Part shown: positions 20,496 through 34,441 of the stretch, one piece after another
Layout of the letters: every line of letters starts with the position of its first letter
Position numbering within the stretch: position 1 is the stretch's first letter
Program-made: the position numbers and the translations under genes
The notes under the pieces: model-generated
What the model saw: the letters and a program-made list of their open reading frames with translations, nothing else
What the model was told of the DNA's origin: nothing
The model's database searches: none
Origin: Gemmatimonadota bacterium
GTDB lineage: Bacteria; Gemmatimonadota; Gemmatimonadetes; Longimicrobiales; Gaopeijiaceae
NCBI GenBank assembly: GCA_030430625.1
Contig: JAUIKL010000017.1
Span: 1-35,578 of the forward strand
Reading direction: 5' to 3'
Length of the DNA stretch: 35,578 bases

Positions 20496-21077
20496 ATGGC
20501 CCGCACGCCTTCGACGATGCTCGACCTCGGCACACCCGCGCCCGACTTCGCCCTCCCCGACCCCAGGACCGGGGCGGTCGTCTCACTCTCGGACTTCGAC
20601 GATGCGTCGGCTCTCGTCGTCATGGTCCTGTCGAACCACTGCCCGTTCGTGAAGCACATCGCCGACGAGCTGGCCTCATTCGGACGACAGTATGCGGAGC
20701 GGGGGGTGGCCACGGTCGGAATCTGCGCCAACGACGTGGAGCGCTACCCGGACGACAGCCCGGAGAAAATGGTCGAGGAAGCCGACCTTCGCGGCTACAC
20801 CTTCCCCTACCTGTACGACGCGGGGCAGGAGGTCGTCCGGGCGCTGCGCGCGGCGTGCACGCCCGACTTCTACCTCTTCGATCGGGACCGGCGTCTGGTC
20901 TATCGGGGGCAGTTCGATGCCAGCCGCCCCTCGCTTCCGACGCCGGTGACGGGTGAGGATCTTCGCGCCGCGTGTGATGCCGCGCTCGCGGGGGACGGGC
21001 CGATCGAGGAACAGCTGCCGAGCCTCGGATGCAACATCAAGTGGAAGCCCGGAAATGAACCGGAGTGGTTTGCGTAG
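20496..21077 (+). CDS. Thioredoxin-fold peroxiredoxin-like protein (PRX_like1 group)
   Basis: A 193-residue cytoplasmic AhpC/TSA-fold protein. GTPAPDFALPDPRTG (12-26) is the usual peroxiredoxin entry, and SNHCPFVKHI (46-55) is the signature of the PRX_like1 subfamily, with Cys49 as the likely redox residue. Family members usually read CNHCPFV; here the first Cys is Ser, so no CxxC pair exists. Cys76 and Cys120 are other candidates for a resolving partner. The C-terminus CNIKWKPGNEPEWF is conserved in the group. GGAGA lies 2-3 nt before the ATG at 20496, somewhat close. Peroxide reduction is plausible but not shown for most members. Confidence 0.85.
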   Translation: MARTPSTMLDLGTPAPDFALPDPRTGAVVSLSDFDDASALVVMVLSNHCPFVKHIADELASFGRQYAERGVATVGICANDVERYPDDSPEKMVEEADLRGYTFPYLYDAGQEVVRALRAACTPDFYLFDRDRRLVYRGQFDASRPSLPTPVTGEDLRAACDAALAGDGPIEEQLPSLGCNIKWKPGNEPEWFA

Positions 21078-24940: not shown

Positions 24941-25681
24941 ATGCACGCACTCCCACTCTTCGCCTTCCTGCAGATCGAGCCGCCGGGGGGCCTCACCGAG
25001 GCCCTCTCGAACAGCCCCCTCCTCGCCCTCGGTGCGATGTTCGGAGCCGGGGTTCTGACGAGCCTCACGCCGTGCGTCTACCCGATGGTCCCGATCACGA
25101 GCGCGGTGATTGCGGGCACGGCGCGAGAGAACCAGTCGAAGTGGCGGACGATCTCCCTGACGCTGACGTACGCGGTCGGCCTCGCACTTCTCTACGCGAC
25201 CCTCGGTGCCGTTGCCGGCCTGACCGGACAGCTGTTCGGGACTGTGAGCGCCAACCCCTGGGCGCTTTTCGCCATCGGGAATCTCCTCCTCCTCTTCGGA
25301 CTGGCGATGCTGGACGTCATCCCGGTCCCGGTGCCGCGGAAGCTGCTCGAGAGGGCCAGCCAATCCGAGGGTGGCTCGTACGGAGCGGTCTTCGTCATGG
25401 GGGCGATGTCCGGCGTCGTCGCGGCGCCGTGCGGAGCTCCCGCCTTTGCGGTCGTGCTCACCTGGGTAGCCGCTACGCAGGCGGGGCTGATGGGCTTCGT
25501 CTACCTCTTCGTCTTCTCGTTGGGGATGACCTCGATCCTGATCGCGGTCGGACTGTTCTCGGGAACTCTGGCGCTCCTCCCGCGTTCGGGTACGTGGATG
25601 GTGTGGGTCAAGCGAGTGGCCGCCGTGATCATGTTCGCGATGGCGGAGTACTACTTCATGACCGCCGGGTACAACCTGTGA
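24941..25681 (+). CDS. CcdA/DsbD-type transmembrane thiol-disulfide transporter
   Basis: A 246-residue membrane protein of the CcdA/DsbD-beta family that carries reducing equivalents from cytoplasmic thioredoxin to the outside. Two conserved helices carry the redox cysteines: Cys45 in SLTPCVYPMVPIT and Cys164 in VVAAPCGAPAF, both followed by proline as in DsbD. Six to seven membrane helices are visible. The start at 24941 (MHALPLFAFLQ) is preferred because the longer frame upstream is not protein-like. The TlpA-like thioredoxin gene follows 20 nt downstream and is the obvious electron acceptor. The selenocysteine peroxiredoxin beyond it may be the ultimate client. Confidence 0.9.
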   Translation: MHALPLFAFLQIEPPGGLTEALSNSPLLALGAMFGAGVLTSLTPCVYPMVPITSAVIAGTARENQSKWRTISLTLTYAVGLALLYATLGAVAGLTGQLFGTVSANPWALFAIGNLLLLFGLAMLDVIPVPVPRKLLERASQSEGGSYGAVFVMGAMSGVVAAPCGAPAFAVVLTWVAATQAGLMGFVYLFVFSLGMTSILIAVGLFSGTLALLPRSGTWMVWVKRVAAVIMFAMAEYYFMTAGYNL

Positions 25682-25701: not shown

Positions 25702-26229
25702 ATGATCGAACGAATCCGTACGACCGGGGCGTTGGCGCTGACCGTCGCGCTGCTCGGTGCGGCACCTCTGGCCGCACAGTCGGGTGGGGTGTCCCTGGCG
25801 CTGGGCACGCAGGGCCCGACCGCCGAGCTCGAAGATCTCGACGGCAACGCGGTGAACCTCCTCGATTACGTCGAGGCCGGCCAACCGGCGGTCCTCGAGT
25901 TCTGGGCCACCTGGTGCGAGCAGTGCGAGGCGCTCCAGCCGCAGATCGACCGGATGCAGGCGGACTACGGAGACCAGGTCAGCATCGTGGCGGTGGCGGT
26001 CGGTGTTTCGCAGAGTGTGCGCCGTGTTCAGCGACACGTCGAGGAGCACCAGCACGATTACCCGTACCTCTACGACAAACGGGGTGCGGCGGTGCGTGCG
26101 TATAACGCGACCACCACGTCGATCGTCGTGATGCTCGACGCGGACGGGAAGGTGGCGTACACCGGTGTGGGCACCGACCAGGATCTGATCGGGGCGGTGC
26201 AGCGGCTTCTGCCGTCGGAGTCGCGCTAG
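25702..26229 (+). CDS. TlpA/ResA-like exported thioredoxin
   Basis: A 175-residue protein with signal peptide (ALALTVALLGAAPLAAQ, cleavage near residue 25) and a thioredoxin fold. The active site is WCEQC (Cys72, Cys75) in LEFWATWCEQCEALQPQ. The following QVSIVAVAVGVSQSVRRVQR and the TTSIVVMLDADGKVAYTG segments are typical of TlpA/ResA proteins; the cis-proline position reads Thr-Thr-Ser, where thioredoxins have Thr-Pro, which could alter redox potential or partner choice. It lies 20 nt after the CcdA gene and should be reduced by it. A strong hairpin at 26290-26320 ends the operon. Confidence 0.9.
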   Translation: MIERIRTTGALALTVALLGAAPLAAQSGGVSLALGTQGPTAELEDLDGNAVNLLDYVEAGQPAVLEFWATWCEQCEALQPQIDRMQADYGDQVSIVAVAVGVSQSVRRVQRHVEEHQHDYPYLYDKRGAAVRAYNATTTSIVVMLDADGKVAYTGVGTDQDLIGAVQRLLPSESR

Positions 26230-26289: not shown

Positions 26290-26320
26290 AGGCCCCGGCG
26301 CGCACCGCGCGCCGGGGCCT
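26290..26320. terminator. Bidirectional hairpin between the TlpA-like and selenoprotein genes
   Basis: A perfect 14-bp GC-rich stem (26290-26303 with 26307-26320) around a 3-nt loop, in the 118-bp gap between two convergent genes. No long T-run follows on either strand, but strength of the stem and position between two convergent stops support termination in both directions. Confidence 0.65.
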
Positions 26321-26347: not shown

Positions 26348-26935
26348 TCAGTTGCCCTCGTCGAGCTCGGGCGTCACTTCGTCGACGATCTCCGCCAACT
26401 CCTCGTACGCCAGCGGGTCGTTCTGGTTGAACTGCGGGATGACCCCGGCAATCCGACCGTCCGGCCCGACGACGATGACGGCGCGACTGTCCACCATGTT
26501 GTTGTCGCGCAGACCACCGCCGAAGGCGGTGTAGGTGGCGCCGTCGTTCGCGGCATCGCTCACGAACAGGAAGGGGAAGTCCTCGTCCTTCAGCCAACTC
26601 GCGCCTTCTTCCGGCGAGTCGTTCGAGACCCCCACCACTACGACGTTGTGTCCTTCGTTGAACAGGCTTGCGTACTGATCACGGTACGCTCTCATCTGGA
26701 CTGTTCAGCCACGCGTTCGAACGCGGAAGAAGAACGCGAGGACGACGGTCTCGCCGCGGTAGTCGCTCAGGCGTACGGGATCCTGGAGCACCCCGTACCG
26801 AGTCGCGCCCGGAAGCACGAAGTCGGGGGCCATCTCACCCACGGCCAGGAGGCCGCTGTCCTGAGCACCCGCGTCTACGGGGCCGCCCATCGCGAACGCT
26901 GCCGCGAGAAACGCGACACAGATTGCTTTGCGCAT
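26348..26935 (-). CDS. Selenocysteine-containing peroxiredoxin (redoxin-domain selenoprotein)
   Basis: A 195-residue exported AhpC/TSA-fold protein if TGA at 26707-26705 is read as selenocysteine. ATG at 26935 has AGGAGAG upstream. Residues 1-24 are a signal peptide (ICVAFLAAAFAMGGPVDAGA). MAPDFVLPG and VRLSDYRGETVVLAFFF lead to RVRTRG-U-TVQMRAYRD. Sec77 sits exactly where the peroxidatic Cys of the TxxC motif should be (Thr74). Sequence then continues in the same frame with VVVVGVSND, DEDFPFLFVSD and VIVVGPDGRIAGVI, all normal peroxiredoxin segments, to a TGA stop with no other interruption. A hairpin fitting the bacterial SECIS model starts at the TGA. It probably reduces peroxides in the envelope, with electrons from the adjoining CcdA/TlpA pair. 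Without Sec incorporation a 76-residue fragment would result. Confidence 0.88.
26659..26707 (-). promoter_or_regulatory. Bacterial SECIS-like element at the in-frame UGA
   Basis: Beginning with the UGA itself, TGAACAG (26707-26701) pairs perfectly with CTGTTCA (26665-26659). Inside, GCGTAC (26689-26684) pairs perfectly with GTACGC (26675-26670) around an 8-nt apical loop CGTGATCA. The loop lies 21 nt after the UGA and has G at its second position. Both match the published bacterial SECIS consensus (about 16-37 nt, G among the first two loop bases). SelB would bind here to deliver Sec-tRNA. The selA/B/C/D genes are not in the window. Confidence 0.8.
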
Positions 26936-27106
26936 CCGGGTCGTCTCTCCTGAAAAGCATTCGTATGGATCGATGCGCCAATATCGGGACGTGCCGAACC
27001 ATCGGCCAGGTCCGTACATTGCGCGCCTCCACATACGCGATCGGAGCGCGAAGGTGCCACGGCTGCCGCCGCGAGCTTCGGTCCCTACCCGAGGAACGGA
27101 CGCACC

Positions 27107-34368: not shown

Positions 34369-34441
34369 GGGGCCATAGCTCAGTTGGGAGAGCGCCTGGT
34401 TTGCAACCAGGAGGTCGCCAGTTCGATCCTGGCTGGCTCCA
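34369..34441 (+). tRNA. tRNA-Ala (anticodon TGC)
   Basis: A 73-nt cloverleaf. The acceptor stem pairs 34369-34375 with 34434-34440 and includes the G3-U70 wobble that identifies alanine tRNAs. D-arm GCTC/GAGC, anticodon stem CCTGG/CCAGG with loop TTTGCAA (anticodon TGC, 34402-34404), T-arm GCCAG/CTGGC with TTCGATC. The 3' CCA is not encoded. A TATCTT hexamer at 34354-34359 could be the -10 box. It is not next to rRNA genes. Confidence 0.98.

Follow-up and report, generated by a model that had tools for sequence, protein, structure and literature searches.

A gene on the minus strand of a Gemmatimonadota contig almost certainly encodes selenocysteine (Sec), by means of an in-frame TGA codon, at the catalytic position of a predicted exported peroxide-reducing enzyme. 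Chance, a sequencing error, a pseudogene or plain readthrough are very unlikely explanations of this TGA. To judge from the sequences compared, the Sec trait and an almost unchanging hairpin behind the codon are kept across much of the phylum, so that the Gemmatimonadota, a large environmental phylum, gain a selenoprotein of wide occurrence, whose gene is cut in two by mechanical calling. The window, that is, the whole stretch of DNA analysed, has 35,578 nucleotides (GenBank assembly GCA_030430625.1, contig JAUIKL010000017.1). Beyond the first reading of this sequence, which we call the initial annotation, we describe here the hairpin, a replaced motif Pro, a missing second Cys, DsbD/TlpA neighbours and the spread over the phylum.

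The gene and its in-frame TGA

The gene comprises the following features:

26348..26935, minus strand: Sec peroxiredoxin-like gene, putatively exported, 195 aa plus TGA stop, conserved in relatives
26705..26707, minus strand: in-frame TGA read as Sec (U77), at the peroxidatic position of TxxU, from sequence and homologue alignment
26946..26951, minus strand: Shine-Dalgarno-like AGGAGA, read from the sequence

From its start ATG (26935-26933) to its natural stop TGA (26350-26348) the gene keeps a single frame, and the TGA at 26707-26705, within the motif FFFRVRTRG-U-TVQMRAYRDQY, is the sole interruption of the 195-residue AhpC/TSA reading frame. When read through, the protein matches Pfam AhpC-TSA over residues 32-163 (E 1e-21, 77.6 bits, cut-off 26) as well as Pfam Redoxin (7.8e-15), and its PHROGs match is a family of unknown function. 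NCBI naming includes the term 'redoxin domain-containing (seleno)protein'. We use 'peroxiredoxin' as a name by homology, the activity being predicted.

Mechanical ORF calling gives two separate ORFs, 26705..27034 (109 aa) and 26348..26695 (115 aa). These are exactly the pieces that the initial annotation had taken for halves of one AhpC/TSA protein, parted by one in-frame TGA with no frame shift; it had also expected automatic gene calling to split that protein. Sequence, translation and ORF calling agree with it on both points. Two ORFs are also what one would obtain if the TGA were a true stop, arose by sequencing error or signalled a gene in decay, in which case only fragments, or nothing functional, would be made. 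We give this explanation hardly any chance, as the following sections explain.

Conservation of the TGA among homologues

The site was first read in 94 of 97 loci (two were without the site and one gave no match), with TGA in 89, TGC in 2 and TGT in 3, these last being distant peroxiredoxins. Since many of the 97 loci were the same genes fetched twice, we prefer a de-duplicated count: 222 homologues from 214 loci were read and 173 of them were different, identical sequences being counted once and near-identical ones staying in. Left out were the Sec machinery loci (L001-L020, L118-L121), distant relatives (L114-L117, the three readable ones having Cys with Pro in the motif) and the source-genome PF00578 matches (L143-L153), with the exception of the window's gene, which is among the latter and was retained as L021. 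The set of 173, nearly all from Gemmatimonadota, over-represents Sec forms with Pro in the motif (Pro-type forms), a pattern that was itself used to retrieve 30 of the loci.

The alignment of these 173 homologues confirms that the TGA stands at the catalytic Cys of a TxxC motif, as had been proposed: 153 carry TGA at this site and 20 a Cys codon (TGC in 19, TGT in 1). The retention of TGA in 153 different homologues argues against termination, error or decay, and so does the half downstream of the TGA, for which 15 comparisons between the window's gene and related ones give dN/dS 0.07-0.28, a sign of purifying selection. Selection on this half would likewise be maintained if the UGA were read through as something other than Sec, whether by a suppressor tRNA, by misreading as Trp or Cys or under a changed code. 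Nevertheless, the gene's own terminator is TGA and the sole alternative residue among the 173 homologues is Cys, so that we attach next to no weight to such a readthrough.

Regarding the spread of the gene, matches at E 1e-15 were found in 34 of 59 relatives, and 33 of the 36 matches listed have exactly one TGA. A Gemmatimonadota sample gave matches at E 1e-10 in 298 of 346 genomes, which may include more distant paralogues, and TGA matches among the matches listed come from the family groups f1, f2, f4, f5, f6, f7 and f9. The homologue search in depth covered the Gemmatimonadota. Short exact peptides, which have a limited reach, found 67 loci in 84,980 species genomes, 7 of them titled outside Gemmatimonadota, including three Gammaproteobacteria MAGs, two Bacillales and one Syntrophales. 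The gene of the three Gammaproteobacteria-titled records (L063-L065) is 78% identical to the window's and lies amid otherwise Gemmatimonadota sequences, and these titles may be wrong.

About ten genomes have neighbouring Sec and Cys copies of the gene (L206, L227, L229, L231, L233-L235, L238-L240, L259, L261, L264), and one has two adjacent Pro-type Sec copies (L236, L260). Natural Sec/Cys pairs, some adjacent in one genome, let one ask why Sec persists outside the cytoplasm. The titles and abstract openings of the open-access literature searched described no Gemmatimonadota Sec peroxiredoxin and no FxxxTxxU motif, and a word search for 'Gemmatimonad-' gave no occurrence in either of two reviews.

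A hairpin frozen downstream of the TGA

26670..26689, minus strand: bSECIS core hairpin GCGTAC-CGTGATCA-GTACGC, whose apical loop starts after 21 nt from the UGA

The RNA hairpin GCGUAC-CGUGAUCA-GUACGC lies 16-35 nt downstream of the UGA; with the U of UGA as 0, GCGUAC at 18-23 pairs with GUACGC at 32-37 around the loop. A passage of PMC13188914 gives as constraints of bSECIS elements a loop of 3-9 nt, a stem of 4-16 bp, a G in the first two loop positions, a distance of 16-37 nt from the UGA and an MFE of -7.5 kcal/mol or lower. The hairpin fits them with a loop of 8 nt (CGUGAUCA), a stem of 6 bp, a distance of 21 nt and -10.9 kcal/mol, the last value being for the 48 nt from the UGA; that passage does not define the stretch to fold.

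All six pairs of the stem are possible in 152 of the 153 TGA genes versus 3 of the 20 Cys ones (Fisher p 1.4e-19, the sequences not being independent); the remaining Cys genes retain 3 to 5 of the six, most of them 4-5. The p-values overstate independence because the sequences are related; the other codons of the same genes serve as an internal control. Where the commonest residue is encoded, codons 6-11 of the TGA genes are GCG in 100%, TAC in 100%, CGT in 95%, GAT in 97%, CAG in 100% and TAC in 100% (rounded), while codon 5 is Arg in 35% of the genes, with AGA making up 94% of these. Away from codons -3 to +12, these genes have a background of 45% for GCG, 7% for CGT, 24% for GAT, 83% for TAC, 86% for CAG and 5% for AGA. 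Codon identity exceeds background by 0.36-0.67 at codons 5, 6, 8 and 9 and by at most 0.18 at codons 14-36. The Cys genes favour CGC, GAC and TAT at the hairpin codons. Silent sites of the hairpin are, in short, frozen when the codon is TGA.

Codon skew appears in the TGA genes also at -2, -1, 2, 3 and 12 (CGT, for example, makes up 87% of the Arg codons at -2). Given the skew at -2, +2, +3 and +12, the constraint may extend past the 20-nt hairpin and also upstream of the UGA. Compared with synonymous shuffles, the MFE of the TGA genes is no lower than that of the Cys genes, and their stretch at 24-69 nt is even less stable than the shuffles; as the MFE is not unusual, the case for the hairpin rests on the frozen codons and the pairs and not on stability. 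No second copy of the hairpin 20-mer with up to 3 mismatches was found in the window or in the source genome, whose assembly is incomplete.

Frozen hairpin codons are difficult to reconcile with a true stop, an error or decay. A bSECIS at the expected distance, degraded in most Cys forms, speaks likewise against a readthrough as another amino acid. The almost invariant 20-nt hairpin offers a clear comparative example of a bacterial SECIS, frozen with Sec and decaying once Cys substitutes.

Sec machinery in the source genome

The source genome (3.46 Mb in 294 contigs, 87.4% complete) has selA (532 bits), selB (344.6 bits) and selD (382.4 bits), all above curated cut-offs, and a tRNA-Sec with anticodon tca on contig C140 (68.6 bits, cut-off 47). 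The initial annotation had proposed to look for selA, selB, selC and selD, and all of them were found with scores above their curated cut-offs; the lack of selB and of tRNA-Sec, which it had named as evidence against a selenoprotein, is therefore excluded. A base other than TGA at 26705-26707, its second such evidence, is made improbable by the TGA that 153 of 173 different homologues have at this codon and by the frozen hairpin. A complete Sec machinery is a further argument against a mere stop, error or decaying gene, and the selD of the same genome, itself with one in-frame TGA, against a non-Sec readthrough. This machinery, the TGA/Cys homologues and the frozen bSECIS hairpin support the selenoprotein reading first proposed, and on this comparative evidence we are highly confident that the gene is a real selenoprotein.

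We also tallied by hand, from the genome searches, the co-occurrence of tRNA-Sec and the TGA gene. The tRNA-Sec model matches all 14 control genomes (above the cut-off in 5), and because of this only matches of at least 62 bits were counted, a line chosen after the scores were seen. Among the 26 genomes at least 90% complete, 12 had both the tRNA-Sec and the TGA gene, 5 the tRNA only, none the gene only and 9 neither (p 7e-4). For all 39 genomes the respective numbers were 16, 8, 5 and 10 (p 0.055), owing to 5 genomes, 64-85% complete, that have the TGA gene without a strong tRNA match. The association is weaker at the curated Rfam cut-off of 47 bits than at 62 bits: 17, 11, 4 and 7 in the 39 genomes (p 0.28), and 12, 8, 0 and 6 in the 26 more complete ones (p 0.017).

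Two further AhpC/TSA genes of the source genome (L144 on contig C192, L145 on contig C121) have an in-frame TGA in WUPYC motifs, one of them with a lipoprotein-like signal. The genome likely has, with SelD, the window gene and these two, at least four selenoproteins. Elsewhere in the window, 20496-21077 (plus strand) encodes another AhpC/TSA-Redoxin protein, which lacks a TGA and shows no evident signal peptide, and 34369-34441 (plus strand) is an ordinary tRNA gene (Rfam RF00005).

Active site and enzyme class

26726..26728, minus strand: Phe70, in the place of Pro in the peroxiredoxin motif PxxxTxxC, from the homologue alignment
26483..26485, minus strand: Arg151, invariant in 69/69 aligned representatives

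The window protein joins an AhpC/TSA domain to the TxxU/TxxC motif, as in peroxiredoxins, and has Phe70 where these have the motif Pro. The U/C site is invariant in the 69 aligned representatives, and Thr stands at -3 of the site in 168 of 173 homologues. Arg151 corresponds to the catalytic Arg that peroxiredoxins conserve. In 172 of 173 homologues the stretch that starts 50 residues before the site and runs to the end has no other Cys or Sec, which means that the resolving Cys of 2-Cys enzymes is missing. Matches to NCBIfam peroxiredoxin models are far under their cut-offs, and the PrxU equivalog NF040737 gives 39.9 bits, under its cut-off of 270. By family profile, the best solved relatives are the archaeal Bcp/PrxQ-like 2ywn, 3hjp and 2cx3 (E 2.2e-28, 1e-24 and 4.9e-22), with AhpE further down the list (E 4.5e-17).

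It is conceivable, though unlikely, that peroxide removal is not the main job of the exported Sec enzyme, which might instead be a sensor, a handler of thiol-disulfides or sulfenic acids, or act on other oxidants. The single Sec with no second Cys, the replaced motif Pro and the thiol-disulfide proteins encoded next to the gene (see below) would suit such roles; nevertheless TxxU/TxxC and the Arg are retained, and the nearest solved relatives are peroxiredoxins. We therefore prefer a peroxidase, whose activity the replaced Pro may alter.

Regarding this Pro, the 153 TGA forms have Phe in 106, Tyr in 17 and Pro in 30, and the Cys forms have Pro in 20 of 20. Early counts (Phe/Tyr in 123 of 124 TGA forms, Pro in 12 of 12 Cys forms) had suggested a strict covariation of Sec with Phe/Tyr, which was overturned by the Pro-type Sec motif. 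Of 395 genomes, 48 have this motif, and a single family group accounts for 43 of them; as these are matches to the motif alone, a few may be unrelated. As Pro-type Sec forms exist, the rule linking Sec and the aromatic residue is one-way only: Sec is not sufficient by itself to displace the motif Pro, and the aromatic residue occurs only with Sec in the sampled sequences.

A careful tree of 83 sequences was made with the motif columns removed, leaving out L194, incomplete rows and TGA rows more than 80% alike. It contains a clade of 40 with good support, made up of 38 Phe/Tyr Sec forms and 2 Cys forms that both have Pro. The other clade, of 43, is mixed and comprises 19 Pro-type Sec, 17 Cys and 7 Phe/Tyr Sec forms. 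Codon state and Pro/aromatic state each change 7 times on the tree, therefore Sec and Cys have swapped places several times. A count of correlated change on supported branches had only 3 independent pairs and is underpowered (on average, Pro going with Cys in 1.4 and no difference in 1.6). The association of this loss of Pro with Sec poses a structure-function question that is open to direct test.

Predicted export and neighbouring genes

26864..26935, minus strand: N-terminus resembling a signal peptide, with likely cleavage after AGA (residues 22-24), from sequence and a heuristic
24941..25681, plus strand: CcdA/DsbD-type membrane electron transporter gene, convergent (Pfam DsbD_TM 1.5e-46)
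25702..26229, plus strand: TlpA/ResA-like thioredoxin gene, convergent (Pfam Redoxin 7.4e-18, Thioredoxin 6e-9)
26290..26320, no strand assigned: perfect 14-bp inverted repeat with a 3-nt loop between the convergent genes, no T run

The signal peptide noticed in the initial annotation finds support in the homologues. By a simple heuristic, which is not a signal-peptide predictor, a hydrophobic signal-like N-terminus is present in all 154 that are long enough (19 were too short), versus 41/173, 27/173 and 29/171 inner stretches of the same proteins passing the hydrophobicity measure as a control. Of the 154, 150 have an AxA-like site and one has a lipobox, while the remaining 3 have neither. 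The sole Cys of the window's precursor (C6) sits in this region.

The TlpA/ResA-like protein of the window has a WATWCEQC motif and a signal-like N-terminus, and matches NCBIfam ResA at 5.1e-20, below the cut-off. The inverted repeat is perhaps a shared terminator of the convergent genes; the promoter and terminator scans reported none.

A CcdA/ScsB-TlpA-Prx gene set of the envelope type is present in the window and recurs at 87 of the 119 Phe/Tyr Sec forms whose flank is at least 1.3 kb. In 86 of the 119, ccdA and tlpA lie tail-to-tail to the Sec gene, and in 1 both are in the same orientation; tlpA stands alone in 7, and 25 have neither. Four further Phe/Tyr Sec forms and one Cys form had too little flank and were set aside. 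Neither neighbour was found beside the 19 testable Cys forms, nor beside those 14 of the 15 Pro-type Sec loci that had a flank of at least about 1 kb; flanks were about 1.5 kb in many loci, so a more distant ccdA could be missed. Among 117 other loci, some of which had short flanks, 3 have the divergent M19 dipeptidase gene that lies on the opposite side of the window gene.

This adjacency might reflect an inherited gene order only, the peroxidase being served by another reductant. We regard this as a real though less probable alternative. It is allowed by the genes being convergent and not an operon. Since 25 of the 119 Phe/Tyr Sec forms and every one of the 19 Cys and 14 Pro-type Sec forms lack the neighbours, a relay through them cannot be general. 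On the other hand, both genes or tlpA alone accompany 94 of the 119 Phe/Tyr forms and the other flank is rarely conserved, which favours a functional link.

Proposed function

Our whole explanation is that the gene encodes an exported one-Sec peroxiredoxin, with Sec inserted through SelB and the hairpin and the enzyme reduced by its TlpA/CcdA neighbours; from sequence comparison we consider it probable. SelB with Sec-tRNA(UCA) would bind the hairpin that lies 16-35 nt downstream of the UGA and would insert Sec at position 77, as the comparative evidence suggests, and the protein would then be exported via its signal peptide. Outside the cytoplasm the selenol, to judge from TxxU/TxxC and the Arg, would reduce H2O2 or an organic hydroperoxide and become selenenic acid. 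As the mature protein is without a second Cys, an outside thiol must then reduce the oxidised Sec. Conserved adjacency points to the neighbouring TlpA/ResA-like thioredoxin as the best candidate reductant, which the neighbouring CcdA/DsbD protein may keep reduced across the membrane.

An envelope one-Sec peroxidase is likely, and the CcdA-TlpA relay to the Sec protein is plausible, with about even odds, on the strength of that adjacency. We propose more tentatively, and would sooner doubt than assert, that Sec let the near-universal motif Pro change and that, with the external CcdA-TlpA reductant, this made a dedicated selenoperoxidase relay of the envelope, its pocket perhaps suited to bulkier hydroperoxides.

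Comparison with known systems

The archaeal 2ywn, 3hjp and 2cx3 and AhpE resemble the window protein by profile match. AhpE (Rv2238c) is a 1-Cys peroxiredoxin, and both it and the archaeal Bcp/PrxQ-like peroxiredoxins are cytoplasmic and use Cys, unlike the window protein with its Sec. The motif Pro is present in the three archaeal alignments, one chain having Ser for Cys.

Sec peroxiredoxins of the TxxU class are already known. PMC13188914 lists this class (PF00578; PrxU of Eubacterium acidaminophilum) as experimentally verified and calls PxxxTxxU highly conserved in Sec peroxiredoxins, and PMC2398784 counts 253 sequences of marine GOS 'Prx' selenoproteins. Like PrxU, the window protein has an AhpC/TSA domain in which Sec takes the place of the peroxidatic Cys in TxxC. 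Unlike it, the window protein has a predicted signal peptide and no second Cys, and 123 of the 153 TGA forms have Phe/Tyr for the motif Pro. Predicted export, no second Cys, the replaced Pro and the DsbD/TlpA neighbours are therefore what is unusual here.

PprX, a peroxiredoxin of Caulobacter, is Cys-based. It is the end point of the envelope pathway ScsB -> TlpA -> PprX (Cho et al. 2012, as described in a passage of PMC5403849). As far as that passage describes it, the pathway resembles the present set of genes, in which a predicted envelope peroxiredoxin lies beside a TlpA-like thioredoxin and a DsbD-class transporter, the likeness being one of genes only on our side. The present set differs in its Sec, in its convergent gene order and in having, where the pathway has ScsB, a short CcdA-like transporter.
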